From Agaricus subrufescens (taxonomy: Eukaryota; Basidiomycota; Agaricomycetes; Agaricales; Agaricaceae): a stretch of 64,000 nt of DNA. A program made the translations under genes and the position numbers. Numbering within the stretch: the first letter of the stretch is position 1; every line of letters begins with the position of its first letter. The stretch covers positions 1,426,001-1,490,000 of the forward strand of contig CM057062.1 of the NCBI GenBank assembly GCA_029945375.1, in the 5' to 3' direction. The notes under the pieces were generated by a model. That model saw only the letters and a program-made list of their open reading frames with translations, was not told the DNA's origin and ran no database searches. Below are positions 23,901-57,915 of this stretch, piece after piece.

Positions 23901-23971
23901 GCCTCTCTTACACAACCTTCGTTTCCCGCTCCCACTCGTCTTTTACAACCTTATACGCCCCCTTTTTTGAA
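20951..23971. repeat. cassette 4, region upstream of gene B
   Basis: Aligns in order with 4320-7284 upstream of gene A (for example CACATGCTCCGAGTTGCTCGT near 21010 versus CACATGCTCTGAGTTGCTCGT near 4381; AAGGTAAGATAA near 22365 and 5734). It carries decayed minus-strand coding-like stretches, none continuous. The promoter of gene B is probably the pyrimidine-rich segment 23880-23940. Confidence 0.6.
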
Positions 23972-36373: not shown

Positions 36374-36378
36374 GGATC
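36374..36378. repeat. left target-site duplication of the 21-kb element (GGATC)
   Basis: GGATC directly before the left inverted repeat; the same five bases follow the right inverted repeat at 57464-57468 and occur once at the empty site 15364-15368. Confidence 0.85.
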
Positions 36379-36560
36379 TCTATGAACCCATATAGGTCGT
36401 ATTTTACCATTACAGGAGGCGTAATCGGTAAAATACTTCCTTTAGAGTAGGTTTTCGAATACGCCGTATTGACAAGTAGTTTTGGTTACTACCTGTAGGG
36501 TAGTAATTTACGAAGAGTCGTTTTCTGTTGTATTTTACCAATGCTCATGAATGATAACTA
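36379..36560. repeat. left terminal and subterminal repeats of the 21-kb element
   Basis: TCTATGAACCCA at the tip, then the word GTATTTTACC or its complement GGTAAAATAC three times (about 36409, 36437 and 36531). The right end has the same word near 57434. Repeated subterminal words of this kind are binding sites for the transposase in CACTA/EnSpm-type elements. Confidence 0.65.
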
Positions 36561-36959
36561 ACGCTTAAAAGATACGATATTGATCGACATCTTTCGACGA
36601 TGTCTTTTATTACGCTAAGTACCGTATATACAGCAGATGTTTTTCAAAGTGTATCTACGGGTCTACAGTCAACACGAAAGATACATAGCGAATGCAAATT
36701 TTGAATTAGAAGGTTTTGCCCCGTAATATGAGGCCTCCTTGAGTCCACCCCTGAATGTTGAGGTTTCTTTGAGGCTTTCCGGGGCGTGTATGCCCCCTAC
36801 ATGCCTTGAGAACCTATCAAAGATGCGGATAGTTGCGTGAGGGATATTTGAGGTGGAACCGGGGGGCCCAGAGCTGTGGAATCCGCCCCTGTAGGTGATT
36901 GTACATAAGACCGGGAGTTTGGCCGTGAAAACGCGATTAAACTCACCTTATCTGTGCCC

Positions 36960-37514
36960 AAAGGCACCCTCTAATTTTTTTCTTGGCCGCATACCGCCCT
37001 ATATTCTTCCATACTTCTCTCAAAGCCTTTTCAACCGCTCTATCAAGGCCCCTCGCTTGGTGAGTGTCGTGCTTCATTGTCGCGATACGATAGACTTTGA
37101 TTTTTCGTTGTTTAAGGCCAAATCGCACACGCGATGATGCCTGGCGGCGATACCAGAGCGTTTTCATTCGCCTGGATCGATGGTGGCAAGCGGTGGACAT
37201 GGGGGCGAAGAGTGGGAGTGGGACTGTGATCGAGGGTGGGGTGAGTGTTCGTTGATTGAGAGGTGGGAGAGGAGAGAAGAGAGTGAACAAATAAGTACGC
37301 ACCTTGAGTTCTTTATGATACCCAAACAAGAGCGTACAACACCTAAGCGTTCACAAACAAACGCCGGCGTTGCTAGGCTCTGAATGAGCCAGCTGTACGA
37401 AAAGGTTCGGGAGCCATTTCGGTCCTGGCACTTCATGAGAAACAAATGGATGAGGTGGCGCGTCCACTATATCATCCATTAACGCCGAGCCGGGCGTACC
37501 AATTTCTGCATTAG
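36960..37514 (+). CDS. possible small cargo gene, start not found
   Basis: Two good donor/acceptor pairs on the plus strand link three open stretches: an exon ending at 37059, exon 37117-37240 (RDDAWRRYQSVFIRLDRWWQ) and exon 37377-37514 (ALNEPAVRKGSGAISVLAL), stop TAG at 37512. Both introns start GTGAGTG and all phases fit. I could not find a convincing start codon upstream of 37000, and a minus-strand frame across 36943-37329 is an alternative. No known domain. Confidence 0.4.
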
Positions 37515-38695
37515 CTGTGAGTAGAGAAGTGAGCGACGCTAGAGGCGGGAGTGTTAGTCTGGCTGCAGCAGCTATTGCTACTGCTGTTCTTGCGGCGGAG
37601 TGAAAGATAGGGAGGAAGAAGCCGCTCTGTAGCCTTTCAGAGACATCATTTGTCTCTGGGAGGAGTAGTGCGGTCCAGTCAAGCTCTCCCTCAAAACTGA
37701 AACAATTGTATCATAGCCGACTGCATCTTTTCCTTTTATCGCATCTCGCTTTGACTATCATTATTCAACTCTAGTGTTTCTGTCTGTTTCTGGGTTTCTT
37801 CGAGTTTTCCTTTGGGTTTCTAGAGTTTTGGGTTATCGGGCCGATGAAGTGGCGTCGCTCTGTCGAATCCACCTCCCACCTCCCACTTTGCTTGTCTGGT
37901 CTTTGGCCAGCCCTGCTTACCACGCTTTATCACATTGATTCGGCGTTTCTCTTGATAGATGCTACCAGAGAATCTATAACAAACTGCCACCGGTCAGTAG
38001 TCTTTACTTACCGCCCATAGCGACCTGTTTTTCCATGCTACCGGTGTATTTCGACGACTCCAGGCGGTGACTGTTGCGCTGAAATATTACCGTGATTGTC
38101 AGTATCAAATATTGTCCTTGCTACGGAGTAAACGTCTGTCCGTGAAGCTATCGAAAACAGGAACGAAAAAAGAGGTTGAGCTTGACGGAGAGCTAACTGT
38201 GGGAACGTGCCTGCCTCGCATAACTATTCAAGCATGGATAGCTAAGTTCTCCTTCACAACGACGGCGTGCGTTCGATGCATGAGACATGAGAATCAAAGC
38301 TTCGAAGGCACGAGCAAGCGTTCATTTGCATACTCTGATTTCCTCGACACACAAGGTACGTGCGCGGCCTTGACATGCACCACCTTGACTTCTTTCAACC
38401 CACTGCCTTACCCGCTCCTTGCCCAATATATAGCTCGAGGATGTTGTGGATTCGGTTGATATTTCGAGGGTGGTATTCGAACTTGATGCCGAGGAGCGGC
38501 CTAGTTATTTGGTGGTATAGGGTGTGCATAAAGGAACCGGTCACAAAGTGGATTATAGGAAGGAGGGATAGGGCTGGCAGCTGCGCGGGCGTTTCGGAAT
38601 AGGGGCGATGTTATCAGTATGCGATGACCAGAGAACGTATCACCACATAATTCAAGCCTCAAGAGGCAAATTGGAAATTATGCAAGGTACATTCG
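37515..38695. other. element DNA between possible cargo gene and transposase
   Basis: Contains plus-strand open stretches, the best being 38067-38351 (in frame from about 38000) with a possible donor at 38352 and acceptor at about 38436, followed by a frame ending SYLVV-stop in a different phase. I could not make a consistent gene. It also contains the 3' flank of the transposase. Confidence 0.3.
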
Positions 38696-41600
38696 TCATT
38701 CAATCTCTGTTACTGTATCGCTTCGGTCCACAACACCCCAAGTATTCCCGCAGTAAACTCTCCCAATGACACATTCTACAGTGTTTAAATCCACGGCTTC
38801 GATAGCGGACGTCTCTTGACAGTAAGAGATGCCATGTTCTGTAGTCTTCTTCGTGCCTTGGATGATAGCGAAGATGACCGTTGACGGCGAATCCAATTTC
38901 AATCGCGGGATGACTGGTAAGTCCAGAACCACAACCTGCTTCAACTGTCCATAGTATGTGCGGGTCTCATATTCCGGCTCACGTCTCTTTTGCCTTGCGA
39001 AGCGATCTACACAGAGGATGTACTACATAGTTGGATTAGATTCAGCTTGCTTATGGAAGAATGGAGAGTGTTCACCTTCACATACGAAGCATCACGGCTA
39101 TCTTCAGTTCGTCTAATGATATCGCTTGCAACCAAAGTCTCGTCATTCCCAAGACAAGTGACTTTGCCATATTGCAGAAGGGGACCGTCGAGTTTAATGG
39201 CAGCTTGTATGGAGGATATTGAAACATCGAATCGCGTTGCCAAAGCCGCGTGAACTCTGTTGCGTGAAGCCGTTGAGAGGGTTGTTTCCTGACGAGGGCC
39301 CCAAAGTTTGAACGTTGGATCTTGATCAATCAGTCAATAATTGATGATCACGAAAGATCATAAATGCTACTTACACGAATCATAAATCTTTTGGCATACC
39401 GTCTTTGTCTGAGGATCTAAATCTAGCTCATCTTGTAAGTTATACAACAATCGAATTTGATCAAGGCGAGCATTTGCAAGCATGAAGGTATTGATAGACT
39501 CATAGGGGTGTCGCCGACTCTTGATAGCACAAAGAAGATTGTTGCATTCACGCTCCATTGGGAAGGCCCAGTAACTCCAAACGGGACCGGCTACCCGGAT
39601 ACCCCATGCAATATGAAGCAATGCATGGAGGGTCAACGGACACGCAGAGAGTCGTGCTGGCTGGTTGCGATAATAATACCTGCACGTCATCAAGAATAGT
39701 TCAACAAATGAGTATAACTACTCTTACCGTTCATAATCCCATACCCACTGGACAAAACCTTCTTCAATTTCACGCAGCATCTTTTCATCAATTTCATAAG
39801 AGAGGCAAAGCTTGAGTAGATTAACAAGCCTCATAAAGTGCTGGTAGTATAGCACCTTCGGGAATCTTCCGCGGAGAACGATTGGAGCTATGAAGAGTGT
39901 CCAGTTCGAATACATCTCGGCGGACATTTGTGATTGCTTCGTGGCAATGTTGGGGACACGAGCGCCAAAAGAAGAAGGGATTGTTGATCCACAATCCTCT
40001 GTAGCTTTGCCAATTTCTGCCCAAACCCGAGGCCCTATTAGATATCCCTTGTTCTCGTGGTCTAAGTCTTTAAATTCACCGATCCAAAATGATATCAAGT
40101 TTGGGATCAGATTTTCCCAAACCAGGTGCATGAAATCGAACGGAAACGACTTAGGGAATGAAATCGCGGATACATTTGAAAGGACCGGTATGCCCTTGAT
40201 ACCATACCGCTTCGCAAGGTCCTCAAAAGAGGTGTTAGTGGATGACATCTGTACGGCGATAGCTTGTTCAATGAGTTCACGATGTGTCCGCATCGGGAGA
40301 TCCCTCGGATTGTAGCGGGTTGGATTGGCATTAAGAAGGTTGTCCCGTCGTAAGGGGACATAGTACATTTTCTTGGCTGCGAGATGGTTACATATGCCTT
40401 GGATTTCGCAAACACGGCATGGGCTAAGTGCGTTTGAGCCTTTCATGTTCATAACGAGTGCCATGGCAGGTATGTCACCAAAAACAAGGATGAGATAAGC
40501 ATGGAGGGGAAAATATGCCTGGGAGATTGAGTCCCAAGCCTTGACGCCAGCTTCGAGTTGAATCAATTCTTGAACAAGTGGCCAAAGATAAGAATCTACA
40601 TCCCATGGTTTCTTGGGACCCAGAATCACACCGACACGTAAACGGTGTTTCTTTTGAAAACGTATCTCCGGCGCAAGGTTGTAATCAAATAAGACGATCG
40701 GCCAACACGTCTGGCTCCGTCGCTTGAATGGGGCAAACCCATCAGTTGAAAGGCCGAGAGCGATGTCACGTTCGTCGGAAAAGTAATAGAAGGGATTGTT
40801 GCTGTCGCCGGTAGGGACGATGGTTCGAAGGAGCGATTGATAGTGTGAACCATCAAAGACGTCTCTAATCACACCTGGTTCATGTTTAAATTCTGCTCGA
40901 TAGCGCAGTCTTTTGGCATGCTCGCGACTGGATAACATGGCGAGCAGACGAGGAGTGATGGGAAGATACGCGAAACACTTCCGCGGCTGGCCTTTAGCAT
41001 TGAGTCTTGGTTCGTTGCACTGGGGGTTGGGACAGTGAGTATAATGCTCATATGGCCCCGTGAAACAGGCACAGCTATTGATGCAGCAGTCGTAGCGGAT
41101 AGGCTGCAAGCCAGACAGTACCTGCACACGTTTCTTCGTCATCTTGAGTGACTCGTGATGAGCTTTTCGAAACACGCGCTCCATCCTTGCGAATGTCCTG
41201 TCGGTCAATCGTTCCTCAATCTTGAGAGTGTATTTGAGGAGAAGGTCGATATCAGCCTCGCTAAGGCTGTTTGAGTTGTCTATCAAATGATGAGATACAT
41301 GGCAGTATAACTGTGAGGAGAAAAACAGACCTAAAGCCGCCAATTTGCGCTTACAATGTTCCCGAGCTTTATCCCAGAGAGTGATGCCTGCCACATCTGT
41401 GCGAAGGTCATCGTTTTCCTCATCCGTCGAGTCATTGCTTTCAGGATCACTATGCATGTCCTGGTCTTCATCCGCAAACAGCGAGTCGTGAAGTGCGTCG
41501 TTTGTCAGCGCAAGTTGTTCCTGGTCGTCCTCCTGATTGTCTTCTTCCTCTAAACTTGCAAATCGAAAGGTAGATCTCCAAGTTCGTTCTACTGCCATCT

Positions 41601-41991
41601 CTATTTGCTCTCTCGCTCTACTTGCTCGCCTAGTATCAGCGCCTGTTTGGTCCCCATTGAAGGGATATTCGCCAATTATGGGAGCAAGAGGTTCCGCTGC
41701 ATCTGGTGCGTCATCTACAGCCGCCGGGGTGACCAGACTGGGAGGAGGGGATGATGGAAAGGCAGTTGTAAGAGGAGCCGCGCTGGTTGAGGGCGCATTC
41801 TGCCGTCGCTTTTTAGCGGCCCTTGTATCCTCTATCACGGTGTCAGAGGGAGGATCTTGAGTGGCGATTATAGCTTTGAGCGAAACGGACTTCACCCGGC
41901 CTACTTGGTGTCGTCGTCTTGTACAAGGAGTTACCAGCTTACGGCAAGGGCATGAGCACCTGACCCTAGACACTTTGGATGGTCGTGCCAT
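38696..41991 (-). CDS. Tnp2/Plavaka-like transposase, 1046 aa
   Basis: Four minus-strand exons (41991-39728, 39679-39375, 39320-39076, 39022-38696) join in frame to 1046 residues; introns are 48, 54 and 53 nt with GT/AG ends. I start at 41991 because its context is ACCATGG and a TATATATTT lies about 40 bases upstream, inside the longer frame that begins at 42054. The protein has an N-terminal Cys motif (RCSCPC, residues 11-16), an acidic region (about 145-200), a Cys cluster at 302-325 (DCCINSCACF...HCPNPQC), and candidate DDE residues: D417 in STDGFAPF, D506 in FGDIPA and D619 in FDFMHLVWENLIPN. CRVC at 525-528 follows the second Asp. The C-terminus (YYGQLKQVVVLDLP through VDLNTVECVIGRV) is typical of this family in Agaricomycetes. 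It should bind and cut the ends of the 21-kb element. It looks intact. Confidence 0.85.
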
Positions 41992-42844
41992 GGTGGGTTG
42001 AATACGAAGTGGACGTGGCAGCGACGAGCGAAATATATATGGAGTGCACAGCATGGAAATTTCTTCCGACCGATAGGGCGGTGTTTTACGCGACCTCAGC
42101 CCGAGCGGCGCGCGAGTGGATCAAGGGTGAAGGATGATATTATTGATTGCTAAGACTATATGCATTAAGTATTTTAAAAATGACGAAGAAGGTCTGTGAT
42201 CGCGGGGAGCTACAGCGAGTCAGGGTGCGAGTCGAGGCGGTGAAACAAGCAGCATCGGGGTTGGGGCATGACTGGTGGGATGGTACAAATCAAAACGAGG
42301 AGGTGATTATAACGGAAACCCGCTATATTCGAATGGAGGCACAGGAATCCCTATGCCAGAAAATGGGGAGATGGTCGACACCGCCTGTCCTTGTAAGCGG
42401 ATGTTGGCCTTGATCTTGATGTTACAGTTAATCATGCAGGTCCTAGGAGAGTAGTTAGCTGACAAAAGCAAAAGTTGATGACTTACACGAGCGCCGGAGT
42501 AGTTGTAGATGGAGGAGGAGGGAGAGATGAGTCGACGTGATGAAGTCACAATACCGTGACACAAACGGATCAATGGCTGATGAAAGGCACGTGCCGACCC
42601 CAACAATGATCATCTGACCATCACCAACAGAATCCTGATGGCATCAAAAAATCCTCGTCCCTCCTCACCCACATCTTCACCTTGCTCGAGCCATCTGTGG
42701 CCCTCACCCACGATCAATTTTTATATCTCGGGTTTCCGGGATATCACTCTCCATTACCTCGGGCTTCCGGGGTAGCATTTTCTGTATCTTCTTGGGTCTC
42801 CAGGAGGCTCGCCACATTTCATCCCGACCTATTCTCTTGCAACG
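41992..42844. other. divergent promoter region between transposase and cargo gene 1
   Basis: About 850 bases between two divergently transcribed genes. The transposase side has a TATATATTT near 42035. Short open stretches (42307-42606 minus, 42147-42413 plus) have no splice or protein support. Confidence 0.5.
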
Positions 42845-45800
42845 ATGCCGGGCCGAGCATACCTCATCGATGGTGATATCTACTACTCTCCAAACTGCGA
42901 CAGAGATGTTCAGCTTCCTAGTGAACTCAACATCGACAATATCACGTCATTCAACCATGTTGGGGTGGAAGCTTTCGAAAGGCCATACTGGTGGTCAGAG
43001 AGGGTTCCGTGGCTGGGATTCATGCCGAGGCGACCGGTATGCTGGAATGGTGCACTCGTCAAAGATATTGGCTACATGCTGAGGCGCTTACTGGTCAATA
43101 ATGAGTCCTCGCGTTACAAACTACCTTATCTTACACAAAATACATGGTTGGCGGTTGAAACATTGATCTGTGAGGTGCTGGGAATCTTCTCGCGCCATTT
43201 CAACATACAATACGTAGCACCATACCCGACTCGAAAGTGGGGCTATACCAACAGTCATGACACTGAGGCCTTGACGTGGCAACATGCACGGCAGGGACGA
43301 GACTGGTTCGCAATGTGGATCGCTTTGCTCTATTGGATGTTGAAGACCGTCCCGGAGGATCCGAAATACATGGAAGGAATCAGTCCTACGGAGTGGTATA
43401 AATTGCTGGTTTCATGGGACAAGGCTCGTATAAGCGTATGGGAGTCATTGCGATGTGCTCCGTTATTGCAACGGTTCTGGGACGCCAATCGTTCAGGTGT
43501 CTTTCTTCACAACCCCGATGATCTGCCAAGTCAACCATCTGCTTTGTGGTTCGACCACTGCGGAATGCCGGTCTGGTACCGCTGGGCTAGTCGAGAAATT
43601 GCCCAAAGCCGACGAGGTGACCGTCGACTCATGGCTCCCCCTCCCGAAGTACTCCAAGCTGCCACCACCGTTATTACGCCATCCGTGCCCTTCCCCGACA
43701 CCAACACAGGGTATGAATGGGAGAGTCAGCAAGATTATGGTGAGTCAATTGTCCATGTATTCTTCGCATATCTCACAAACTAACTAACAACCTCACCAGA
43801 GCCTCACTTCACCCCAGCTAGCCCACCACAAATGCATGTCATTGATGATGATCAACGTCCCCCTTCCTCGCCCTCTCAAATCAGCAAGCTTGTTTGGAAG
43901 AATGGACGACTACGTCAAGTTGAAAAATCAGGTCGTGATATCTGGGAAGCATTCGAAAAGAAGCATGAGGAGAGGCATCAGAAGATGCTACTCAATGAGA
44001 GCCCTGTCAACCGACAAACAAGATTAAATCGCCAACAAAAGCCGCCACTTGTTAGTGCGGCAGTGTACGTGTGGGAGTGGACTCTAGACACGCCACCCAA
44101 GTTTGTTCGAACCCTAGTTCCCAAGCGAGATCGAAGTTATCACAAATCTTGCTTACCTAAGTAACCTTGAGAGATAAATGGGGAAAGAGCAGTGATCTTA
44201 GATAAGCAGAGAGATGAGATGACAAAGCACAACTGATGTTGTTAAGTCTGGGTCTTAAGGACACCAAGACAAGCTACTTATATACACATCTGAGAAGGAC
44301 CCGGGACACTACCAATGACCCCAGGGACTCTAGTCATGACTAATAATGTATCTAAGTTTAGCTACTCTAATAATAACCAACCAATAGGAACAATCCCTTT
44401 ACTACTCTGAGTTACTCTGGGTTACTCTGGGTAATGGTGCGATAATGATGTGATAGAGAACATTCTAGAAGGTTCTAGAATGTTCTAGAATGGTCTGGAC
44501 TGCTCTAGAACAATTAGGTAATTAAGGTCTTCTAACTTATGGCACAGAGAATAAAGAACGTTGAATATCTCAACAATTACTAGGCCGTTTCGGGTGATAT
44601 GGGTATCAGTAGAAACGGTTTGATCAGGGCTTTCCAACGGTGCCCGATTTGTAAGAATCGGATCAGCCGTTGGTAAGATATAACGTAATCTTCCAAATCT
44701 GTGACATTACCCTCTCTTTTAGTTCGAACTCTGATGAGAAGTTATCCAGTTCCCTAAGTCTAGTGCTTGGGATTATGATGGAAATACTCCTGAATCTTTT
44801 CAGTCGCATTTTTAAGGTTTGATTCTGGTTCCCAGGTATCATCTCCTTGGGTAAACCCTTTCCATCTAACTAGGAATTCATTCTTCCTGTTACGAACTCG
44901 GTGTTGGAGAATCTTTTCGACTTCCCATTCATCATGTCCACCAATTTGGATAGGTGGTAGTGCTGGTGGTTTTTGTCCGAGGATGGTGGGTTCAGAGTAG
45001 GTGACTAACTTGCTAGCATGAAAGACTGGATGTATAGAACGATATCGAGCTGGCATACGTAACCTGAATGTTACAGGGGACAGTTGTTCAATGATTTCAA
45101 ATGGTCCCTCAAAACGTGGTCGTAATGCTCGCTCTGTTGTCTGATAATCCTTGAGATTGAGTAGTACTTTATCTCCAACTCTAAAGGGAACTTTCTGGAC
45201 CCCTTGGTCATAGTACCATTTCATTCTTTCTGCTGCAAGTATAAGAGCTGCTTTCGCCTGCTCTTGTGCCTCTTGTCTTTTATATGTTATGTCATTAAGG
45301 TCAACATGGGTAGTCGCCTTGACAATAGGTCCTGCTCGTGGATGCCGACCATACTCAAGGAAAAATGGTGATTCCTTAGTACCTTCATGTGCTTGGTTGT
45401 TGTATGCAAACTCTGCTGATGAAAGCAGGTCTGACCAGTTGGTGAGGTTATAATCAACATAACACCGTAGGTACTGTTCCAGAGTCTGGTTAACACGCTC
45501 AGTTTGACCATCTGTTTGAGGATGGTAGGCTGTTGACATAGTTGACTCAATACCCAATATCCGACACCAATTCTGGAAGAGTTCAGCTGAATACTGTACT
45601 CCTCTATCAGATATGATCTGTAATGGCAATCCATGTAGGGGATATATCCTATCATATAGTAATTGTGCTAGATCTTGTGAGGTGAACCGGTTGTTAATGG
45701 AATAGAAGTGAGCTCGTTTTGTTAATCTGTCAACAACAACACATATTGCGTCATAGCCATTTGACTCAGGTAATTGAGTAATAAGGTCGGTAGATATAAT

Positions 45801-48800
45801 TTCCCAAGGACCATTAGGTACCTTGTTTGGAATAAGCAGTCCATAGGGCTGTTGTGGGCGATTTTTCATCCGCTGACACATATCACAGCCTTTAACATAG
45901 TTCTTGACAAATATAGACATACTAGGCCACCAATAGTTTCTAGAAACCAATTCATATGTTTTCCATCGTCCTGGATGTCCTGCTGAGGGCAAGTCATGAT
46001 GAATCTGGACAATACGACGTCTCAGATGATCATCTATGCTTTTAGGGATGTAGACCTTTCCTCTATATAGTAGTAGACCATTTTCATAGTTCCAATCCTG
46101 TAGTGATTTTCCAAATTCACGAGGACCAGACTGTAAAAGTGACTTATAGTCCTTTGTCACATCATCGGAAAGTAATGCTTGTTTGACCTCTTTTAGGATT
46201 TGTTCATCATTTATAGGTGACTCATGAACAGCTTCGATAGCTTGAACAGCGAAAAATTCAGGCTTCAAAAGAATTTGATCCTCATTATCGAAGTTTACCC
46301 CCTCTTCATGGTCTGGCCTCCTGGACAGAGGGTCTTCAGCTTGCATCGTCTTTCCTGGTTTGTGGTATAGGGAATAGTGAAAGCGTGTGAGGTATAGTGC
46401 CCACCGGGCTTGTCTCCTAGTCAGTTTTTGTGCTGACTTGAAGTATGTGAGGTTTTGATGATCTGACCAGATCTCAATTATCTTAGGATGTCCCTCTAGA
46501 AGATGACGATATTCCTCTAATCCCCTGATAATGGCTAATAACTCTTTGTCATATATTTCATAATTTCGTTCATGAATATCTAATGACTTAGAGAAATAAG
46601 CAACTGGGTGCCACAAGCTATCAGTTGGGTCCAGCTGGGAGAGGACTGCACCAGTAGCAAAATCACTTGCATCTGTTGACAGCCTAAAGGGATTTTCATC
46701 ATCTGGGATACGTAGAATGGGAGCAGTGGTGAAAGCCTTTTTCAGCGCTTCAAATGCATTTTGCTGTTCTGCTTCCCAAACCCAAGGTTGATCTTTCTTG
46801 GTCAGATTGGTGAGTGGCTTGACAATTTTGGAAAAGTCTTTAATAAACCTGCGATAGTAATTCGCAAATCCAATAAATGCCTGAACATGTTTAACCTTAG
46901 TAGGTACTGGCCACTCAAGAACTCCATTGAGTTTCTCCTCATCCATTTCGACCTTGTTATGGGAAATGACCATTCCAAGATATTTCATACTTGTTTGTTC
47001 AAAGGAACACTTTTCTGCTTTAGCAAATAGGTCATTTTCTCGAAGTCTTTTCAGCACTTCTTTGACCAGTTTCTGATGTTCCTTTTTATCATTCCCAAAT
47101 ATAAGGATATCATCTAAGTACACCATAACTTGTCCTTTACGAATCAAGTCTCCAAGTATATTGTTCATCATACTTTGGAATGTGGCTGGTGCATTAGAGA
47201 AACCAAAATACATAACCGTTGCTTCAAATAGTCCACGTCGTGTTATAAAAGCAGTTTTCCATTCATCTCCCTTTTTGATGCGGACATTGTTATATCCCCA
47301 TCTAAGGTCAATTTTTGTGAATATTGAAGCTTGACTGAGAGATTCAATCAAGTCAGAGATTCTTGGAATAGGATAACGGTTTTTGACAGTGATTCCATTG
47401 AGTGCACGGTAATCCATGACTGGTCGAAGACTGCCATCTTTCTTTTTGACAAAGAAGAATGGGGCAGCAATTGGACTTGTAGAAGGTCGTATATAACCTT
47501 TACGGAGTTCTTCATCAATCCATAAATCAAGAGAATTTCTTTCTTTTGGAGACAAAGGATAGACCTTAGCTGGTTTGGGAAGCATTGAGCCTTCAACAAA
47601 CTCAATTCCATGGTCATATTCCTTTCTAGTTGGCATACGTTCTGACTTGACTTTAGAAAACACGTCACCGTACTCATGTAGCCATTCTGGCACATGTTCC
47701 TTCCAGTTCTTAGTATCTTCATCGTCAAGTTCCTCTTCTATGTCTTTGTCGAGCATAGATGCTATCACCATAGCTTGTTGGCGATCGTCAGGGTCATTTA
47801 CATCGACCCAATTAATATGTGGATTATCCATGTCTTCATCACCTAAGTCGTCCAATGAAGATTCCCATGGATTATCAGAGTCGAGAGAAAGCTCGTTGGC
47901 ACCAGCTTCTACATCTCGTGTTTTACGGGCTTTACTGGTACATGTATCCGGGCACCTGGTGAACTCCCATTCCCCATTGTGCCAATCAATAGTTGGATTG
48001 TGTTTATACAAGTATGAATATCCAATCATCATATTCTTGTCCCCTAACTGAGTGACAAAGAGATAATGTGTGGACTTGTGAGAACCAATCTCAACATAGG
48101 CACGGACATATTCATTAATCTGTCCAGATTTATTTGGAGTTCCATCCGCATTGATTACTCTATACGGTGAAGCCAATTTATGTGTAGCCAGGTTATTTTG
48201 TTTGACAAACTCTTTGTCGATGAAGTTTGTTGTGGCTCCCGAATCAACTAAAGCCTCGGTCTGCACTTTTGTGCCGTATACCCATAGTGTTACTGGAAGT
48301 CTAAAAGAAGAAGTCTTGTTGCGCGATATATTATTTACACAAGCATCCAGTACTACTTCAGAACTATCTGAGCCAACATGAGGTATACTACTTCCAGACT
48401 GTAGATCACAGACATTATCCTCTACAGTCCTTCCGGAAAATCCATCTGAGCCCTTCCTTTAAGCTTTTTGGAGCCCGTCGGCTTCCCAGATCCCTTCAGC
48501 ACATCACCGATTTGTGCTACAGCCTTTGTTTCAACAGGCGTGGAATCAGGAAGTTCTTCGATGGTCGCGCTGTTGACGGTGACAACCTCAGAAGGGGTTT
48601 CTGGGTCATCATCATCCATAGAATTGAGCAACTCGACTAGTCGAGTCTTGAAGTTTTTGGGTTTATAAGTACCATTTGAAGATCCAGATGACGAGGATGG
48701 AGTTGGTTTAGAAGAAGATGGAGTAGACTTCTGAGGACGTTTACTCTCATTGCCAGGTTTATCATAGCAGTCACTAGTATTGTGGGTCTTAGATTTTGTC

Positions 48801-51800
48801 TTCAACCCTTTGCCAGCACAGATTTGACAGTATTTCTGTACCTTCTCTTGACTACTAGCCTCTTTGGTTTTCTTCTTTTTCGCCTGATCAATCTCCATAG
48901 CATATGGATCCTTGTTGCCACTACCACTTGCATTTCCGCTGTCGCCGAAAATGACACCTTGAGCCTTATCAGGGTGAAGGAGTTTGAATGCCTTAAGCAA
49001 TAACTGGAGATATTCATCCCAAGTTTTTGGCGCCAAATTATTGATTTCATACATGATAAGCGATTTTCGCAACTCATCAGGTATAACATCTTTCAACTTG
49101 TCAATGTGGACTTCATCAGGATAGTCAACAATCCTAGCCAAAGTACGATAACGTTCCACAAATTTGACAAAGTTTTTCTTGGCAAGCTCCTTATTACCCC
49201 ATAGTGCTGCCAATTCCTTTTTAGCACCTTCCTTATCGTCCCTTTGTCCATAAATACTCTTCAATTCCTTAACAAAGTTTTCCCAGTTTCCAAGAGGTTG
49301 ATCCATTTGAACCTTGACAAAATAGTCCTTCATATAAGTGCTAGCTGGTGCACGTAATCGAGTAAGTGCACATATGATTTTCTGGTGGTCAGTGACAATT
49401 CCAGAAGCTGCACAGTATAGGGCCATTTGATTTAACCAATCATCTAGCTGCATTTTATTCTCAGATCCAGCATAGGTCGGAGGTTCAGGAACTCTGGTTT
49501 TTGCAACACCAGAGTTAGCATCAGCAGGAGTTTGGCCTATCTGATTTTGAAGAAGATTAACTCTTGCTTCAAGGTTCAACAATGAAGACAGCCTGGCCTC
49601 AAGAATAGCGATTCGAGAGTATGCCCTATCGAGTGCCTCATTATAATGGGAAGATAATCCTTCAACTTCTTCGTCAATATACTCTTTCATAGTTTCAGTA
49701 TCCACTGTGTGGGCATTGCGAAGTAGATGAGCCAGGGCTGCACGAGGCGGTTCATCAGCCATGTTGAGAACAGCAAAGTTAACTCCATGAGAAACTCGGT
49801 TCGCCCAGGCATCAGCATTATCTTCTGGCATAACCACAGATGAAGAGTATGGGATGTAGTTGGGAATGAAGTCAGACATGGTCTAAGTAACCTTGTCAAT
49901 AATGAACAATAAAGTTTGTCGTGAAAGAAGTGCAAATAAAAAGAAAATCACACATAGCCAATGCCAGTCAAAGACAGTAGATCTCCATTTTAAGGTAATG
50001 TAATGTTTAGAGATAACAATTCCTGTCTAATTTCTACCAATCTAGTAGCTAAGTTGCTAAAAGACACTGCTTTAATTCGTTTACAGGCTCCTTTAAGTTT
50101 TCTCCAGTCTCCATTTTTGAATTTATGACCTATCTTTTCAATATCTCTCTCAATAACCTGCAATCTATTGAACCAATCCCAGAGTGGGTCGTTCAATTCC
50201 TCTTCTGCCGATTTCTCCTGCGGAAGAGTGAGTTCTGAGACCCTTTGTTCAAAGGCCTTGAAAACAGGTTCGAGACAATCCAGAGTAGGTTGGATAACCT
50301 GTTTGAACTCTTGAATACGTAAGAGATACTTGGTTTTCTTGATATGAAGATCAGGTGGGATAGGTGGAGAGAGTGTGGGAAGTTTTGGAACAGCTGGAGT
50401 AATGCGGTCCAAAAGTGGAGGAGAGCTTGCAATTCGTTCTTCCAAAGTTTTACGTTCTTTGGTGAGTCGTTGAAGAAGTGACATTTGATTCATTTCATCT
50501 TCATGGTCCTTCCTGATCTCAGCATATTCTTCTGGCGACAGAACACGCTTGATGAGAGGGACAGGAGGGGGAGGATGATAGTGTTTGGTAGGACGACCAA
50601 TATGTTTGGTTCGGTTTTTCATGTCTTTGGTCATTTCAAAACGACCAGGTTTCCAGGTCATTTCGTCATGATAATGAATGACATCAGATTTTTTGACTTT
50701 TGGCATGGCTAAGGCAACAAGTGGTGTGAATACAACATCTCTATTTCAGCAGATGAGGTACAAATAAAGAAAGTGGGTCTTGATGTGTATCTTGATGGGA
50801 GAGTCGACGTCATATCCAGTTTCTCACACTGGCTTATGGAGGGGGAGTATCAGATCTCAGTGTGCTTCCACACACACTGCAAAGGTTTGTATTACACAAA
50901 TCCTAAGTCGCTACTAACAAGACTCAACCGTCAACGACAAAGATATGCCTCATGGTTTTATCAAGTCAGTTTCCAGTAATAGGAATAAGCTGACACCCCT
51001 TACGCCTAGGGTCCGGCAAGTGGATTAGGTAAGACACCATAAAAGGTAGTCCCTATGACATAATAGTCCAACACTGAATATCAGGGTCATCACAAACACC
51101 ATCACAAACATTGATCCATCAATGCCAAACATGGACAAACAATGCCAAACAAATGACAAGGTGTTGCCAATCATGGACAAAGTTGGTCAAATAGTGACAA
51201 ATAGTGTCAAAATAGTGACAAACAATGACAAACAATGCCAAGACAAAGCCAAAGGCCTTCTCCATAAGTCAATAGCTCTTTGCAGCAACTATGACTGAAA
51301 TGCCCCCAATGCCCAAACAAGAATACACATCTGCAAACAACCCAGACATGATTGCCAAACAATCATGCCCAAAAGAGCAGACTTAACAAACTATCACAAA
51401 TGTTGCTTACCTAAGTAACCTTGAGAGATAAATGGGGAAAGAGCAGTGATCTTAAATAAGCAGAGAGATGGGATGACAAAGCACAACTGATGTTGTTAAG
51501 TCTGGGTCTTAAGGACACCAAGACAAGCTACTTATATACACATCTGAGAAGGACCCGGGACACTACCAATGACCCCAGGGACTCTAGTCATGACTAATAA
51601 TGTATCTAAGTTTAGCTACTCTAATAATAACCAACCAATAGGAACAATCCCTTTACTACTCTGAGTTACTCTGGGTTACTCTGGGTAATGGTGCGATAAT
51701 GATGTGATAGAGAACATTCTAGAAGGTTCTAGAATGTTCTAGAATGGTCTGGACTGCTCTAGAACAATTAGGTAATTAAGGTCTTCTAACTTATGGCACA

Positions 51801-53689
51801 GAGAATAAAGAACGTTGAATATCTCAACAATTACTAGGCCGTTTCGGGTGATATGGGTATCAGTAGAAACGGTTTGATCAGGGCTTTCCAACGGTGCCCA
51901 ATTTGTAAGAATCGGATCAGCCGTTGGTAAGATATAACGTAATCTTCCAAATCTGTGACAGAAGTGAGATGCTGGAACAGGCCCGCCCTGGGGAATCTCG
52001 CAATGATTCATTCTGCAATGAGTGGTCCATTTGTAGTGAGTGGGTCGATGAATCATACGAGGATTCGGATGAAGAAGCAGAAGAGACTGAGGGAGGTGTT
52101 GATTTGCATTCCTGTACTCCGTCTGCTCAATCTGTTGAGCCACTCTCATCGCCCGCTTCCTCCGCCCTCCCTATTGCTTCTGTAGCCTCTAACCTCCCTG
52201 CTGCCTCTCCCGCCTCTGCCTTCCCTATCGCCTCCGCTCTCCCCGCTGCCTTTGTCGCTTCTGCCCTCCCTGTCGCCTCCGCCTTCCCTGCTCCCCGAGC
52301 CGCTTCCGCCCTCCCTACCGCCTCCATTCTCCCTACCGCCTCTATTCTCCCTGCCGCCTCTACTCTTCCTGTCGCCTCTGCTCTCCCTGCCGCCTCTGCT
52401 CTCCCTGCCGCCTCTGCTCTCCCTGCCACCCTCCCTGCCCACCCTATCAGCCCCTCTCTGCTACATACACCGTCGGGTAGCGGCCTAATGTCTGTTCCAA
52501 GCAGCGAACTAGAAAAGTCTCGGTTGCAGGTACTTGATGTCCTGACCAAGCACTATGGTTTTCTCCCCCCGCTAGGGTTATCCACCCAAGTTGGGGTTTT
52601 AGCACACTTGGCTGACATCAAGGCTGTACTCGCCGTCACCGGCACCAACACCATCAAAATAAATAGCGCCCTCTGGGCAACGGAAATGGGCCATGCTTGC
52701 ATTGACTTTGTGCTGTATCTCACTAGCAAGGAACAAGCTGAACCCCCGGTAGCTGTGTGGGACCTTTCGTCAGGGTGTTGTCAGCCTCTCAAGTTCTCTC
52801 ATCGATTGCGCAATATCAAACGGGTGCAGGCAGGCGCCCAGAGCCTTTACATGTTCGACTTCGGTGAATGGGCTACTGTCCCCTGGAGTGTTGCTGTTTA
52901 TACAGCTTCTGCGGCTCTTATGGTCTGTCGTCTACATCCTGACCTCAGAGACAAAGACATCGCCGTCGAATTGGCACAATCCGGGGTTCCTTTCCGCACC
53001 CTACAGAAACGGGTTGGTCTTAACGTTGTGAAAGATGAGCTGCCGTGTGCAATGATACCAATGGTTTTCTCAAACCATGTTTTTACTCTCAACGACTACA
53101 ACTTTTGGAAGCAAAGATGCCAGTCTATCTTGACTTCCCGGCGCGGCCGTGCGGCTGTACTACGTGGTGGTTATGTTTGGCGCTTGGCGCTGGATGAAGG
53201 CATTGGTATCAGCGAGGCATTGAAGGGGCCCTCGGGTCTACATTACAACAACGCTCTCAACTTCTGTGCATGGGATAAAGATGGTATAGAATACATCGAT
53301 GACAATCTGACAAATGATGAGCTGGACCTCATATGCGGCGTATACCAAAGCTTCACAGGTACGTTCTGTAGTGTGGAACAATGCAGCTTCCTTACTAACT
53401 GTTCACGGTAGGTATTGGTGGAAGCATCAAGAAACAGTCATGGTATCCTCTTTGCTCCACGTTCGAAGGCAACGGGGACGACCAGGGTCGCTGGAATTCT
53501 CGACTAGAAAGCAACTACCTCAGTCGTCAATCGTTCATCCTTGCCGGGACGGCCACAATCGATCCAAAGCTGTTATTATCAGCCACCCAGTGGCGCGACA
53601 AGACTCGAGGCTCTGGAGATGCCAGGAGATCCACCAGTTCTGTGCAAAAGTGGTCCACACAATTCCTTGATACGTACTGCAGGGCATAA
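42845..53689 (+). CDS. cargo gene 1, 967-codon gene interrupted by a retrotransposon
   Basis: Exon 1 is 42845-43739, an intron 43740-43799, exon 2 starts at 43800 and is broken at 44137 by the gypsy element; it resumes at 51966 and runs to 53358; intron 53359-53411; exon 3 is 53412-53689. The phase is the same on both sides (codon AGT of the duplicated GAAGT), so the uninterrupted gene would encode 967 residues. The N-terminal part is Trp-rich globular (WWSERVPWLGFMPRRPVCW), then an acidic Ser/Glu region, an Ala/Leu/Pro 5-residue repeat (52130-52440), and a C-terminal part with SWYPLCSTFEGNG and TQWRDKTRGS. From memory, similar Trp-rich ends occur in many unnamed mushroom proteins near transposons. 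Interrupted here, so at best a truncated product of about 420 residues is made. Function unknown. Confidence 0.75.
44138..44706 (-). repeat. 3' LTR of the gypsy element
   Basis: 569 bp, aligned without gaps to the 5' LTR at 51392-51960. It carries the heat-shock-like repeats at 44458-44490 and a TATATA box at about 44277-44284. Confidence 0.93.
44707..44720 (-). promoter_or_regulatory. polypurine tract of the gypsy element
   Basis: In the element's sense the bases just before the 3' LTR read AAAAGAGAGGGTAA, a polypurine tract, the usual primer for plus-strand synthesis. Confidence 0.8.
44760..48421 (-). CDS. pol: gypsy Pol polyprotein (protease, RT, RNase H, integrase, chromodomain)
   Basis: The frame is open from the end of gag (about 48421) to a stop at 44760; the first possible start usually called is a GTG at 48266, so the true N-terminus is probably made by a -1 frameshift out of gag, which ends at 48422 in the neighbouring frame. 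Counting from the GTG (1168 residues): protease active site DSGAT at about 8-12, reverse transcriptase with FTKIDL (D320) and YLDD at 383-386, RNase H with STDAS near 535, integrase zinc finger HHDLPSAGH...CDMC near 770-815, catalytic ISTDL, IISDRGVQYS and the Glu of TDGQTERVNQTLEQ, and a C-terminal chromodomain (WEVEKILQHR...VRWKGF...DDTWEP) near 1108-1160. Every catalytic residue I can check is present, so it looks active. Confidence 0.93.
48422..49879 (-). CDS. gag: gypsy Gag protein, 485 aa
   Basis: An intact frame with ATG at 49879. It has an N-terminal coiled-coil region (about residues 65-115), the conserved gypsy Gag core (PPTYAGSENKMQLDDWLNQM, LKSIYGQRDD, FVERYRTLA), and a zinc-knuckle-like CQIC...THNTSDC near residue 350-370, followed by a Ser/Thr/Pro-rich tail. 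It should form the virus-like particle that packages the element's RNA. Confidence 0.9.
   Translation of the reverse strand: MSDFIPNYIPYSSSVVMPEDNADAWANRVSHGVNFAVLNMADEPPRAALAHLLRNAHTVDTETMKEYIDEEVEGLSSHYNEALDRAYSRIAILEARLSSLLNLEARVNLLQNQIGQTPADANSGVAKTRVPEPPTYAGSENKMQLDDWLNQMALYCAASGIVTDHQKIICALTRLRAPASTYMKDYFVKVQMDQPLGNWENFVKELKSIYGQRDDKEGAKKELAALWGNKELAKKNFVKFVERYRTLARIVDYPDEVHIDKLKDVIPDELRKSLIMYEINNLAPKTWDEYLQLLLKAFKLLHPDKAQGVIFGDSGNASGSGNKDPYAMEIDQAKKKKTKEASSQEKVQKYCQICAGKGLKTKSKTHNTSDCYDKPGNESKRPQKSTPSSSKPTPSSSSGSSNGTYKPKNFKTRLVELLNSMDDDDPETPSEVVTVNSATIEELPDSTPVETKAVAQIGDVLKGSGKPTGSKKLKGRAQMDFPEGL
49990..50706 (-). CDS. extra ORF between 5' LTR and gag, 238 aa
   Basis: An intact frame with ATG at 50706 (MPKVKKSDVIHYHDEMTW), 110 bases upstream of gag in the element's sense. 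It is basic and Pro-rich at first (RPTKHYHPPPPVPLI), then charged and helical with likely coiled coils (RKDHEDEMNQ, LTKERKTLEERIA, LQVIERDIEKIG). It ends before gag starts and does not look like LTR or leader noise. Most gypsy elements lack such an ORF. No domain recognised. Confidence 0.75.
   Translation of the reverse strand: MPKVKKSDVIHYHDEMTWKPGRFEMTKDMKNRTKHIGRPTKHYHPPPPVPLIKRVLSPEEYAEIRKDHEDEMNQMSLLQRLTKERKTLEERIASSPPLLDRITPAVPKLPTLSPPIPPDLHIKKTKYLLRIQEFKQVIQPTLDCLEPVFKAFEQRVSELTLPQEKSAEEELNDPLWDWFNRLQVIERDIEKIGHKFKNGDWRKLKGACKRIKAVSFSNLATRLVEIRQELLSLNITLP
51379..51391 (-). promoter_or_regulatory. primer-binding site, self-priming type
   Basis: The bases right after the 5' LTR (element sense GTTTGTTAAGTCTG) do not start with TGG as tRNA-primed sites do. 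Instead TTGTTAAGTCTG is perfectly complementary to CAGACTTAACAA inside the LTR (51493-51504), about 30-40 bases after a TATATAAG. This is the arrangement of self-primed Tf1/sushi-group elements. Confidence 0.7.
51392..51960 (-). repeat. 5' LTR of the gypsy element
   Basis: 569 bp. In element sense it starts at 51960 with TGTCACA. It has heat-shock-like repeats at 51744-51712, a TATATAAG at about 51538-51531 and a predicted transcript start near 51505. Confidence 0.93.
51712..51744. promoter_or_regulatory. array of seven heat-shock-element half-sites in the LTR
   Basis: GAA and TTC alternate with exact 2-base spacers: GAA-CA-TTC-TA-GAA-GG-TTC-TA-GAA-TG-TTC-TA-GAA. This is a perfect run of the nGAAn heat-shock-factor unit, seven units long, about 180 bp upstream of the TATA box. 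The same array is at 44458-44490 in the other LTR. Confidence 0.7.
52130..52440 (+). repeat. 15-bp tandem repeat coding ASALP-type units
   Basis: Imperfect repeats of CTGCTCTCCCTGCCGCC-type sequence encode about 20 copies of a five-residue A-S-A-L-P unit inside cargo gene 1. The last four units are nearly identical, suggesting recent slippage. Long minus-strand open frames here are only shadows of the repeat. Confidence 0.8.
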
Positions 53690-54051
53690 ATCATTTTCGA
53701 TCTGTACCTTACGAACAACGCTTATTGCTGTAGAATAGAGTCTTAACTAATTTGTAGATTTTGCTTGTTTGTTTTCGCATTCTTGGACAACGGCGGACAT
53801 GTAGTGTACACCTGTAGCTTTCGTTCAACCCACTGTTAGAGCCTGCAATTTATGCGGGAGCATTGTTCGATGTTACTTTGGTAATTTTCCATCTCGATTT
53901 CACTTTCCTGCACTACTAATCCGACAGCTATAGTTCTTAATATTCATGGAAGAATTACAATATATTATCTTGTGGTATAACTCCTCCATTGGTACGTATC
54001 AAACTTGCACAACTCGCGTGCATCCTAGACCGCTTCTATTATGTCAAGTTC
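53690..54051. other. short spacer between convergent cargo genes 1 and 2
   Basis: About 360 AT-rich bases between two stop codons; it should hold the 3' UTRs of both genes. Nothing else seen. Confidence 0.5.
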
Positions 54052-55086
54052 CTACTCGTCTTGCTTGGACAACTCGATATTCAGCTTGATATTTCCCCAG
54101 CCATTGTCTGGAGCGCGAACATGTACACGCACAACCTTGCACCGCTAATAAAAAGTTAGTCAATGCACATCTCTGGAATTAAATATTTACTTTGCGTTGC
54201 CTCTCATCTAGGTCCTCAATCTCTACTTCAAGCACCTCCTCTCTGCCGCGTTTCTGGCTACTACCGGAGGTTTCCTTGCTGATTGCTGGGCTCTCAATGG
54301 TATCTTGCTGAATACCTGCAGCGTTTTCAATGGTATTTGGCATGGGCTCCTGTTGAGCATTACCAGACTCGCCCACATCCGATACGTGTTGTCTGTCAAT
54401 TTGTTCTTCGCCAGGCTGATTATCTACACTAGGCTCTGATTCGTTTTGCTCCGCTCCTGTATGCCCCTGTTGGGAATTATCAGTCTCTCCCGCATCCGAT
54501 ACGTGTTGTCCGTTAATGTGTCCTTCGCCGGGTTGATCCTCTACACTAGGCTCCGCTTCGTTTTGCTCCTCTCCTGTGTAATCGTATAAGTATCAGCTTA
54601 CTGAGTTGTAAGTGACTTACCATTTTGCGGGCCCTGCTGACCAAAAAGTAGTCCAGTAGTGGCCACGGGTGGCACGTCACCCTCCAAATCTGGCAAATCT
54701 GGCATCACAAATTCCGGCGTCACCAGGTACTTTCTGTATGGACACTGAATGTTTGGATTGGCTTTCAAGTATTCCTTCCACTCCAGCTGATTGCCAGGCA
54801 TCAGAACTGATTCCGAAAAAGAGCCTAGGGCAGATGAAGGAGAGCCTAGGGGAGACGAAGGAGAGCCCATAAGGGGAGACGAAGGAGAGCTCATAAGGGG
54901 AGACGAAGGAGAGCCCATGAGGGGAGACGAAGGAGAGCTCATAAGGGGAGACGAAGGAGAGCCCATGAGGGGAGACGAAGGAGAGCCCATGAGGGGAGAC
55001 GAAGGAGAGGAAATAGGTGAGTAATCCTCAGGCAATTGCGAAGACATTTTACTGAACCACTGCCCTCGTCTCTCATTTTTATCCAT
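54052..55086 (-). CDS. cargo gene 2, repeat-rich unknown protein, 313 aa
   Basis: Three minus-strand exons (55086-54621, 54573-54191, 54144-54052) join in frame to 313 residues, with introns of 47 and 46 nt and GT/AG ends. Exon 1 has eight copies of an 8-residue unit (SPSSPLMG, 24 bp) followed by a short globular stretch (WKEYLKANPNIQCPYRKYL). Exon 2 contains a duplicated unit of about 38 residues (EQNEAEPSVEDQPGE and EQNESEPSVDNQPGE). It is acidic with a bipartite-like KRGREE near the end, and finishes with RCKVVRVHVRAPDNGWGN. Convergent with cargo gene 1. Function unknown. Confidence 0.7.
54835..55015 (-). repeat. 24-bp tandem repeat coding SPSSPLM(G/S) units
   Basis: The unit GGGGAGACGAAGGAGAGCCC with ATGA or ATAA is repeated about eight times, with two shorter units at the 54835 end. 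It lies in exon 1 of cargo gene 2 and keeps the frame. Confidence 0.85.
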
Positions 55087-55568
55087 AGGGCCATATCATC
55101 TCGACCTAGAAAAGTATCTTGAGCCGGATGTGTTCTTTGGATATAGCCGGATCCCGACACCAGTGGCGCTCTACTGGAAGACGTAAAGCTGAGTCTTTTC
55201 CTTTCATTTCAACAGTAATTTACTACTTATAAAGAAAAGAACATTTTTACTGCAGTGCGCCATCGACCCTGGCGGCACTGCTAATAGTGGAGTTGAATAT
55301 ACCGGTATGGATGTCGCCCGACGAAACAATGTCGGGCAGACGTAAGCTGAGCATTTTTTTTCATTTCTAAAAATTTTTGCTCACAAAGCATCCTTGTTGA
55401 CTCACCGTTCTACCCGTCTGCCTATCTGTACTACGTTTTGCGCCTTTCCAATCGGCTACTAATGCAAGCGGTACTGCCTCAAGATATTGAATGTTCGTAT
55501 GGTCCGCCATGTATATAAGTTGCGCTTCTGACTGGCATTGCTACTCTACAGACCTCCCAATTCTCTAC
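55087..55568. promoter_or_regulatory. divergent promoter region of cargo genes 2 and 3
   Basis: About 480 bases between two divergent starts. It holds two copies of an ACGTAAGCTGAG(T/C) word (near 55181 and 55340), each followed by TTTTC.TTTCATTT, suggesting a small internal duplication. A TATATAAG lies at about 55512, some 55 bases before the start of cargo gene 3. Confidence 0.5.
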
Positions 55569-56898
55569 ATGGCTGTATCCTCGAAAACCCTCGCTAAATC
55601 ATCTAAATCCATGCCCTCCTCGGGAACTCCTACAGCGTCCAACGCTAGATCCGGTCAAGGTGCTCCTAGCGATCCTTGGCAACTGGTGGAGATGTTAAAA
55701 AACCAGATCTCCCAGTACCATGGTAAGGTCTTATTTTCTTTATCGCTCCTGCCTCACCGTTTTTTCAGCGGAATTGGATAAGTACATGAAATCTGCGGCC
55801 TTGCGACCGGAGGGTTCCCCACAACTTATAAGGCGACCGGCAAGGCTTACAAAATTGGTCGATGATATGCAATTAACTGATCAGAAGTCTCTTTATAACC
55901 AATGCCATGTAAGTGCAATTGGTATTTCTGTTTTTCTTTTTACTTATGAAAGTAGATCTTCGTGAAGGACAGGATGAAAAACTGTGGGATAAGGTTCTCA
56001 ATGCTTTACAAGGATATTGACCCCACACAATTGACCGATACGGTAAAACTGGTCCGTATTTATATCCCTCCTGCTCTTCAATTTCTCACGCTCATGTTTC
56101 AATCCTTTATCCATCTTTCAGGCAAAGACGGACCACCCCCGACTTCGAATGTATGAGTCGGACTGGGCCCTATATGAGATCATAAAGGGCACACTGAAGA
56201 ATTCACGAAGCAATGCGAGGAAATCAAGTAGATGGTCTCAAAATGGCGCCTCACCATCGGCTGGAGATAGCCATGTGGATGAGACAGGAGATGACTCTAA
56301 CGATGAAGGTGATGATGGGCCGGGATCTGTAAATGGTGTTGGGGATAGTGAAGTGAATCCTGATGGGGACCTCTATGACGACAAAAGCACCCCCGATGAC
56401 AATACCAGTGATCTCGATGATGACACTGGTGACGTTTGCAACGACAGTGGAGTTGTGCGCAACAGCAGTGCCAATGCTTTCACTGAACATGATCACTCTA
56501 CAAACAGGGATGTATTACTTGAAGATGATGGTAGTGAAGATGAGGTGATGGTGACTGAGGAGCGTACAGAGAGACCAGGGCCTGGTAGGCAGCCTGTTAC
56601 TGCCAAGGCAGTCATTCCAGTTCAATCGCAACTGGCTGCGAAGAAAAGGCTGCGTGAAGATGGTAATGGAGATAACAAGGGGAGTACAGGCAAAGCGCAG
56701 CAGGGACAGAAGGAGAGGGCAGGAAGGGGGAAGAAGAGTGGTAAAACTACAGCTGGAGTGCCAGTACAACCAGGCCAGAGACCCGCTTTGCAGCGATCTT
56801 GCAAAACTGTCAATGATACTGACCAGGATTCCCGACCAGAGAAGCGGCGACGACAGATAGGTGGTGGACGTCATAACAACCCACTAACAGCTCAATGA
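55569..56898 (+). CDS. cargo gene 3, unknown protein with acidic and basic C-terminal half, 385 aa
   Basis: Exons 55569-55722, 55769-55908, 55956-56042 and 56122-56898 join in frame to 385 residues; introns have GT/AG ends. The N-terminal half is globular and helical (PWQLVEMLKNQISQYH, RRPARLTKLVDDMQLTDQ, HPRLRMYESDWALYEIIKG). The C-terminal half is a long acidic stretch (Asp/Ser/Asn, about residues 165-260) followed by basic clusters (KKRLRE, RGKKSGK, EKRRRQ) that look like nuclear signals. A nuclear, DNA- or chromatin-associated accessory protein of the element is plausible but not shown. No known domain. Confidence 0.7.
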
Positions 56899-57463
56899 AA
56901 TACATCAGAGAGTTTGGAAGAAACTGCCTGGGGATGGTATAAGTGACGGTTGGGCAATAGGTAGTTTACTACTATTTTTTCCTTTACTTTGCTAGATCTT
57001 ACCGTAGATTCTATTCAAAATTTCCATTTCTTTCTTTGTTACTGTCTGTATAATTCCACGACTAGCTCCATTTCCTAATACCATTGACTGAGTGAAGTAC
57101 GTAGATGGTTTTGGTTTTTTTCCATACATTCATCTATATAAGTCCCTTGATACTACAGTTTTCAAATACATTTTGCATTGTTCAAAACCTAAATTTTTGT
57201 GGTTCTCAGAATTTTGCATACTACAAAAATCGGCGTGATTTTGATTTTGAGGGGTGGTAAAAAAGCAGAATATCGTAGTTCTGATGCATTTTATACTACA
57301 AAACTAAGCATTTAAACTTGCTCAACAAGCTGTTTTTATCACCCATATTTGTCAATCCTTTATAACTCTGTGGACGGTAATTATACGACAGATACACTTG
57401 TTCTATACTAACTTCTTGGCCAATTTCTCAGGTAGTATTTTACTAATCCTTTGGGTTCACAGA
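56899..57463. repeat. right terminal and subterminal region of the 21-kb element
   Basis: AT-rich DNA with short repeated words (CATACTACAAAAAT near 57218 and TTATACTACAAAACTA near 57291) and, near the end, GTAGTATTTTACTAAT (57433) and the tip GGGTTCACAGA. No gene seen. Confidence 0.6.
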
Positions 57464-57915
57464 GGATCAAACTCGAACAAGAAAAGTTTTGTCCTCTGTT
57501 CTGCTGCTACTGAATTTTACTCTATATGTCGCTGGCGCATTTGTCAAAGGTTAGTTTTCTCAACTCCATTCGTTGAGCACATCTTGTGTCTTACAACCGA
57601 TCAAACCCCCAGGCAGTCATTGCTATACACAATTCCATTTAAACCTCTTCTCGCAAAAGTTGACTCCTGGCTCATAAGCACTGCGGAGTGGTCCTCTGAA
57701 TTCGGGTTGTGGGTACCTGGATGAATAGCTGGGAAATAGGCATTTTGTGCATGTTTGTTGCGTCAAAACAGGCAAATTCCATATCTCCTACTTCCTAAAA
57801 GGTTCCCCCTCAAAAGCAGATTTGTTCTGTCTTTCTGCACTCTTCTTGTACCCCTCCCCTCTTACTCCCCTTTCTACATTCACATCCCCTTCTCTCGCTT
57901 CCTCGCGCCTTCATA
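57464..57915. repeat. cassette 6 resumes after the 21-kb element
   Basis: From GGATC at 57464 the sequence is a near-identical copy of 15364-15814. It includes the CCCTCCCCTC tract upstream of gene D. The element therefore lies only about 450 bp upstream of gene D and may have cut off distal promoter DNA. Confidence 0.75.

Follow-up and report, generated by a model that had tools for sequence, protein, structure and literature searches.

The window, a 64,000-nucleotide stretch of the Agaricus subrufescens genome (assembly GCA_029945375.1, contig CM057062.1, referred to as C6; C6:1426001-1490000 in a genome of 44.65 Mb and 44 contigs), harbored a DNA transposon whose body of about 13.3 kb is interrupted by a nested Ty3 element (Table 1). 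The element encoded a Tnp2 transposase together with genes designated A, C and E, and a weaker gene call, D. Its ends were terminal inverted repeats (TIRs) of 13 bp with one mismatch. An earlier note on this DNA, made from the letters alone, had placed inverted ends at these positions, where they were found; the limits it gave (36379-57463) were each moved outward by one base, and its estimate of a body of some 13.3 kb was borne out.

Full copies of the element were found at three sites. Probes from the left (122 bp) and right (164 bp) ends returned four and three places in the genome, respectively, window included. This search of the assembly for copies with the same gene set, which the earlier note had proposed as a check, yielded two further full copies, at C8:2220470-2233821 (13,352 bp) and at C1:1143681-1167630 (23.9 kb, of which 10.6 kb is an insert other than the Ty3 element). 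Both had the same ends and genes as the window and were 97.9-99.6% identical to it, segment by segment; the homology of the three copies stopped at the same bases, and their flanks were unrelated. The fourth left end, on C11, belonged to a decayed copy (about 93% identity) disrupted by insertions and a deletion, with a match that ended inside gene C.

Perfect 3-bp target duplications bordered all three full copies (GAT in the window, TCA and GTG in the other two), each expected by chance about once in 64. As a C preceded the left TCT and a G followed the right AGA in all three, the element was delimited as CTCT..AGAG with a 3-bp duplication, the ends of the window family reading CTCT[A/G]TG. 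The GGATC noted earlier on both sides was present because the target reads G-GAT-C; a 5-bp duplication was rejected, as it failed in the other two copies (GTCAC/GTCAT and AGTGC/GGTGG). The terminal 12-mer alone was near background (37 genome hits vs 31 for the reversed control). The 9-bp motif GTATTTTAC occurred four times in the 13,352-bp copy, each time within about 160 bp of an end and nowhere else in that copy, in which the motif positions were read before being transferred to the window.

The window also contained an uninterrupted version of the insertion site. Joined with one target copy, the flanks aligned to 15250-16564 at 90.8% over 1319 columns, gap-free at the junction, which confirmed the uninterrupted paralogous sequence reported at 15340-15400. 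The second such paralogue, reported near 29690, was located near 29694 and was only about 64% like the first, adding little weight. The block has thus moved whole to at least three sites, with a 3-bp duplication at each; that its genes travel together is what the earlier note had supposed, and their order (A, Tnp2, C, E) was also kept in diverged relatives. Movement was recent, since just 8 of 13,350 three-way columns had a substitution private to the C8 copy. The element may still be active, but no full copy has an uninterrupted gene C.

Table 1. Features of the element and of its insertion site, in window coordinates (TIR, terminal inverted repeat; LTR, long terminal repeat)
Feature	Position	Strand	Remarks
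Whole element	36378..57464	.	21,087 bp including the nested retroelement; end positions common to three full copies
Target duplication GAT, left	36375..36377	.	
Target duplication GAT, right	57465..57467	.	
Left TIR CTCTATGAACCCA	36378..36390	+	
Right TIR CTCTGTGAACCCA	57452..57464	-	
Uninterrupted paralogous site, single GAT	15365..15367	.	
Subterminal motifs GTATTTTAC/GTAAAATAC, three	36399..36538		starts 36399, 36428, 36530; fourth at 57435-57443
Gene A	36669..37200	-	two conserved exons; 5' end and open start uncertain
Tnp2 transposase gene, several exons	38696..41991	-	PF02992; co-linear with a 1023-residue Agaricus bisporus protein
Gene C, 5' part	42845..44137	+	60-bp intron 43740-43799 proposed from splice signals
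Nested Ty3-type LTR retroelement	44138..51960	-	LTRs 44138-44706 and 51392-51960
Gene C, 3' part	51966..53690	+	end approximate
Gene D	54179..55208	-	low-complexity open frames; weakest gene call
Gene E	55569..56898	+	four exons, 385 residues

The transposase matched Tnp2 (PF02992) through the open reading frame (ORF) 39724-42120 (E 1.9e-26, 93 bits against a cut-off of 28.6), with further exons down to 38696, and the A. bisporus protein was 70% identical to this ORF. Its frames were open in two of the three full copies, the window copy among them. D460, D549 and C568-x2-C571 were conserved in 121 aligned sequences, the H(3-4)H and the last E being assigned without certainty. The earlier description of an apparently intact Tnp2/Plavaka-like transposase was therefore right as to Tnp2 and its open frames in the window, but not as to Plavaka: the ORF gave no match to the Plavaka transposase profile PF18759 at E 0.1, and the window was absent among the at least 135 genome matches listed. 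Neither of the Plavaka termini looked for (TGT..ACA or CATCA..TGATG) was found at the ends of the element, which are CTCT..AGAG, and no DUF3435 tyrosine recombinase appeared among the Pfam matches of the 20 ORFs scanned, out of 71 listed in the element.

A sister subfamily, with a transposase 71% identical to that of the window, displayed CAC..GTG ends. Parts of three copies were fetched and the point where homology stops was located, giving a left end of CACAGTGAGACC and a right end of CACTGTGAGACC, i.e., CAC[A/T]GTG, with GTATTTTAC-type motifs also close to these ends. Sister copies spanned about 13.6 kb on C3, with TAG on both sides, and about 14.9 kb on C5, with GTTA/GTTA, while one copy on C6 was without matching flanks. 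Because CAC..GTG ends with 3-bp duplications denote EnSpm, and TGT or CATCA ends denote Plavaka, in the available portion of Kojima (2025, PMC12730594), the window element is classed as CACTA/EnSpm-type with derived CTCT ends.

Genes A, C and E recurred beside Tnp2 in diverged relatives. Protein searches of the genome scored the best 56 of 116 Tnp2 and the best 123 of 153 Plavaka candidates, so that the resulting counts are lower bounds. Six-frame matches merged into at least 49 Tnp2 loci, 27 of which had gene C head-to-head, 26 gene A downstream and 26 gene E beyond C, with all three at 22 loci; the linkage of a partner expected by chance was about 0.005-0.011 per locus. Three short gene E rows, which cover residues 93-130 and come from the three full copies, were omitted from this count, and the C1 copy was allowed a span of 25 kb, owing to its nested insert. 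A neighbor's gene may have been counted at C6:2839929 (gene E at 14.3 kb) and C6:2848541 (gene A at 13.1 kb), both among the 22, and at C4:2133382. All 30 loci whose best Tnp2 piece was at least 66% identical had one partner or more, against none of the 19 at 62% or below; three of the 30 had gene A only, one of them 10.9 kb away (C4:2133382).

Order and orientation of A, Tnp2, C and E were the same in diverged subfamilies. The best A. bisporus relatives of Tnp2 (Agabi119p4_9912, 70%) and of gene C (Agabi119p4_9913, 60%) adjoined by locus tag on one contig. Genes A, C and E look like a conserved accessory set, that is, long-standing parts of the element rather than freshly captured host genes. 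The earlier picture of captured cargo was not supported, given that these genes accompany the transposase in one diverged copy after another.

The accessory genes differed in their state of preservation. Protein matches to gene A were obtained at 51 merged loci, many of which preserved the exon boundary. Gene C was oriented away from the transposase, and its frames of 335 and 481 residues formed one gene, found whole as an 839-residue frame in a relative on C9; it was split by the Ty3 element in the window, and the C8 and C1 copies had a common in-frame stop. Gene E was intact in all three full copies, and sister copies had relatives of it at the corresponding place, as well as frames matching the position of gene D. 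Of the several intact cargo genes announced earlier, gene E was thus upheld, but gene C, split by the retroelement, was not. For Tnp2, six of eight comparisons could be computed and gave ratios of nonsynonymous to synonymous substitution rates (dN/dS) of 0.07 to 0.18, the other two being saturated. The ratio was about 0.1 for a gene A exon, where dS exceeded 2, and 0.30 when gene E was compared between two sister copies; gene C was saturated. Any function given here for A, C, D or E is inferred.

The element is probably a recently mobile CACTA/EnSpm-type (Tnp2) transposon in which the transposase is accompanied by accessory genes A, C and E, and possibly D. Several observations weigh against this assignment. 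The six insertion sites examined, three in the window family and three in the sister subfamily, gave four perfect 3-bp duplications, one GTTA/GTTA and one site with none, and the window family itself ends in CTCT instead of CACT, departing from CAC..GTG termini. None of the three full copies has an uninterrupted gene C, so that either the gene is not needed in cis or these copies are now defective, and searches found no DNA-binding domain or known fold in it. No tblastn match to gene D was found in sister copies, and dS was saturated in several comparisons.

Two other explanations were weighed against that assignment. The extra genes could be captured host passengers, making the element a cargo carrier comparable to giant cargo elements. 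No Pfam domain above cut-off, solved relative or known function was found for any of them; none of 382 candidates matched gene E at E 0.001, which makes a host origin possible, and only 25 of the 51 gene A loci (rows matching the 3' half only) lay within 16 kb of Tnp2, with 9 of 51 within 16 kb of Plavaka. This explanation is nevertheless unlikely, as C, A and E keep their order and orientation beside Tnp2 in diverged subfamilies, gene C adjoins Tnp2 in A. bisporus as well, and the dN/dS values point to purifying selection. Far less probable still is segmental duplication or misassembly in place of transposition. Near-identical duplicated blocks do exist elsewhere in the genome, for instance C6:960-1040 kb and C9:680-762 kb, where Tnp2, C, A and E matches at near-equal spacing and identity point to a large duplicated block, but such events would hardly account for three copies that have identical ends, perfect 3-bp duplications and unrelated flanks, or for the uninterrupted paralogous site.

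As a CACTA/EnSpm-type transposon, the element would move by the known behavior of its superfamily, Tnp2 recognizing the ends and cutting and pasting the whole block. Least certain is the part of the accessory genes: one or more of C, A and E might fill the role of maize TNPA, binding the end-proximal repeats, aiding the transposase and countering silencing by methylation. In maize Spm, TNPA and TNPD are both essential for transposition, and TNPA reactivates the methylated Spm promoter (PMC1636069, in the portion available). Profile scans of the accessory genes recognized no DNA-binding domain that would mark a TNPA-like second protein.

The copies decayed by C-to-T changes at CpG, a pattern that fits methylated DNA. 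CpG-type changes accounted for 360 of the 409 C-to-T changes in the C11 copy. Private substitutions numbered 58 in the window copy (32 at CpG) and 68 in the C1 copy (51 at CpG), while 6 of the 8 in the C8 copy were at CpG.

Gene C was also found beside Plavaka transposases, for which PF18759 gave at least 135 matches in the genome, merged into at least 70 loci. After hand-merging of 69 gene C rows into 62 loci, pieced loci being given an assigned identity, 35 loci were at least 64% identical to the N-terminal part in the window. Their head-to-head partner was Tnp2 at 27 (26 before adjustment for the C1 copy, whose insert displaces the partner), Plavaka at 5, neither at 3 and both at 0. Spacing in the five Plavaka pairs was 3.9-4.1 kb; three pairs had the identical spacing of 3,874 bp and may represent a single family. 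The 27 distant gene C loci (31-39% identity) had neither Tnp2 nor Plavaka head-to-head, and five of them had Plavaka at about 4.0 kb on the other side. At C9:298700-302700, in one of these pairs, a TET/JBP-like frame (L056:1563-2183) and a Plavaka transposase (L056:2874-4001) lay beside a gene C relative. The TET/JBP-like frame was situated between the other two, displayed an HRD motif and matched Tet_JBP weakly (E 0.014; 15.1 bits, cut-off 34.9), and the locus is possibly a TET-bearing Plavaka element.

Two readings of the shared gene C were considered. Tentatively, and at somewhat less than an even chance, gene C (perhaps with A) may be a portable helper of fungal transposons, TNPA-like and countering CpG-methylation silencing, that was exchanged between Tnp2/CACTA and Plavaka lineages and is usable by different transposases. 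Such exchange has been reported for TET/JBP genes. Gene C could instead be common to both types of element by descent from one ancestral element, a reading to which we likewise give less than an even chance. The available part of Kojima (2025, PMC12730594) groups the two transposases in a wider clade, CMCT, and gene C also lies near Plavaka, albeit on the other side, at 5 of the 27 distant loci. Against common descent, the five Plavaka-linked copies were 68-74% identical to the window N-terminal part, about as close as the Tnp2-linked sisters (64-77%) and well above the distant copies (31-39%), a comparison of identities only, with no tree.

Resemblance to known systems was partial in each case. 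With CACTA/EnSpm elements the window element shares Tnp2 (PF02992), short TIRs, 3-bp duplications, end-proximal repeated motifs and, in its sister subfamily, CAC..GTG ends, whereas its own CTCT..AGAG ends and its four or five genes, against the usual one or two, set it apart. Plant CACTA elements carry more subterminal repeats than the four GTATTTTAC copies found here. Starships of the Pezizomycotina, defined by a DUF3435 tyrosine recombinase, likewise move several genes as a unit; the window element differs in its TIRs, DDE-type transposase, 13-kb size and conserved gene set, with no Starship-type recombinase among the ORFs scanned. Multi-gene CACTA elements are already known in a red alga: the enlarged En/Spm families of Chondrus crispus reach 16-20 kb with 4-5 ORFs in the accessible part of PMC6431247, a similar size in another kingdom, likened here by description. 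Plavaka elements share the adjoining gene C in this genome, but the window element has Tnp2 in place of PF18759, and neither PlavakaA nor PlavakaB, as described in the portion of PMC12730594 available, matches it in ends and duplications.

The literature examined contained no description of this fungal gene set, or of one gene paired with both Tnp2 and Plavaka. If the proposed readings are true, a whole clade of fungal CACTA-type elements maintains a multi-gene complement under selection, and the unknown-protein families of Agaricales include many transposon genes. The pairing of one accessory gene with a second transposase type would make helper-gene trading between transposon lineages testable in a single genome, in which CpG-decayed and fresh copies side by side could also reveal silencing.

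The 10.6-kb insert of the C1 copy encoded another, distant Tnp2 (PF02992, 1.2e-17) and ended in CAGTAAAAA..TTTTTACTG, with about 9 bp duplicated. The Ty3 element of the window was flanked by a 5-bp duplication (GAAGT), and its LTRs of 569 bp had 4 mismatches between them. Both LTRs (44457-44486 and 51711-51740) carried a perfect six-unit heat-shock element, made of three successive GAAnnTTC. This pattern occurred at 32 places in the genome, all one 28-mer or its complement, against 0 for the reversed control, and suggests a candidate heat-responsive retroelement family. A 251-residue frame of the Ty3 element (49990-50745), between the right LTR and gag, had no Pfam match at E 0.1.

The flanks of the element in the window consisted of diverged tandem paralogous blocks, 74-91% identical by segment (2962-8661 with 19573-25384, and 11881-16646 with 34014-38158, coordinates beyond 36377 following the numbering of the flank-only sequence). 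The flanks also contained a 2OG-Fe(II) oxygenase frame at 1883-2695 (PF13532, 2e-25) and a phosphodiesterase-like frame at 59639-62815 (PF01663, 2.8e-12).

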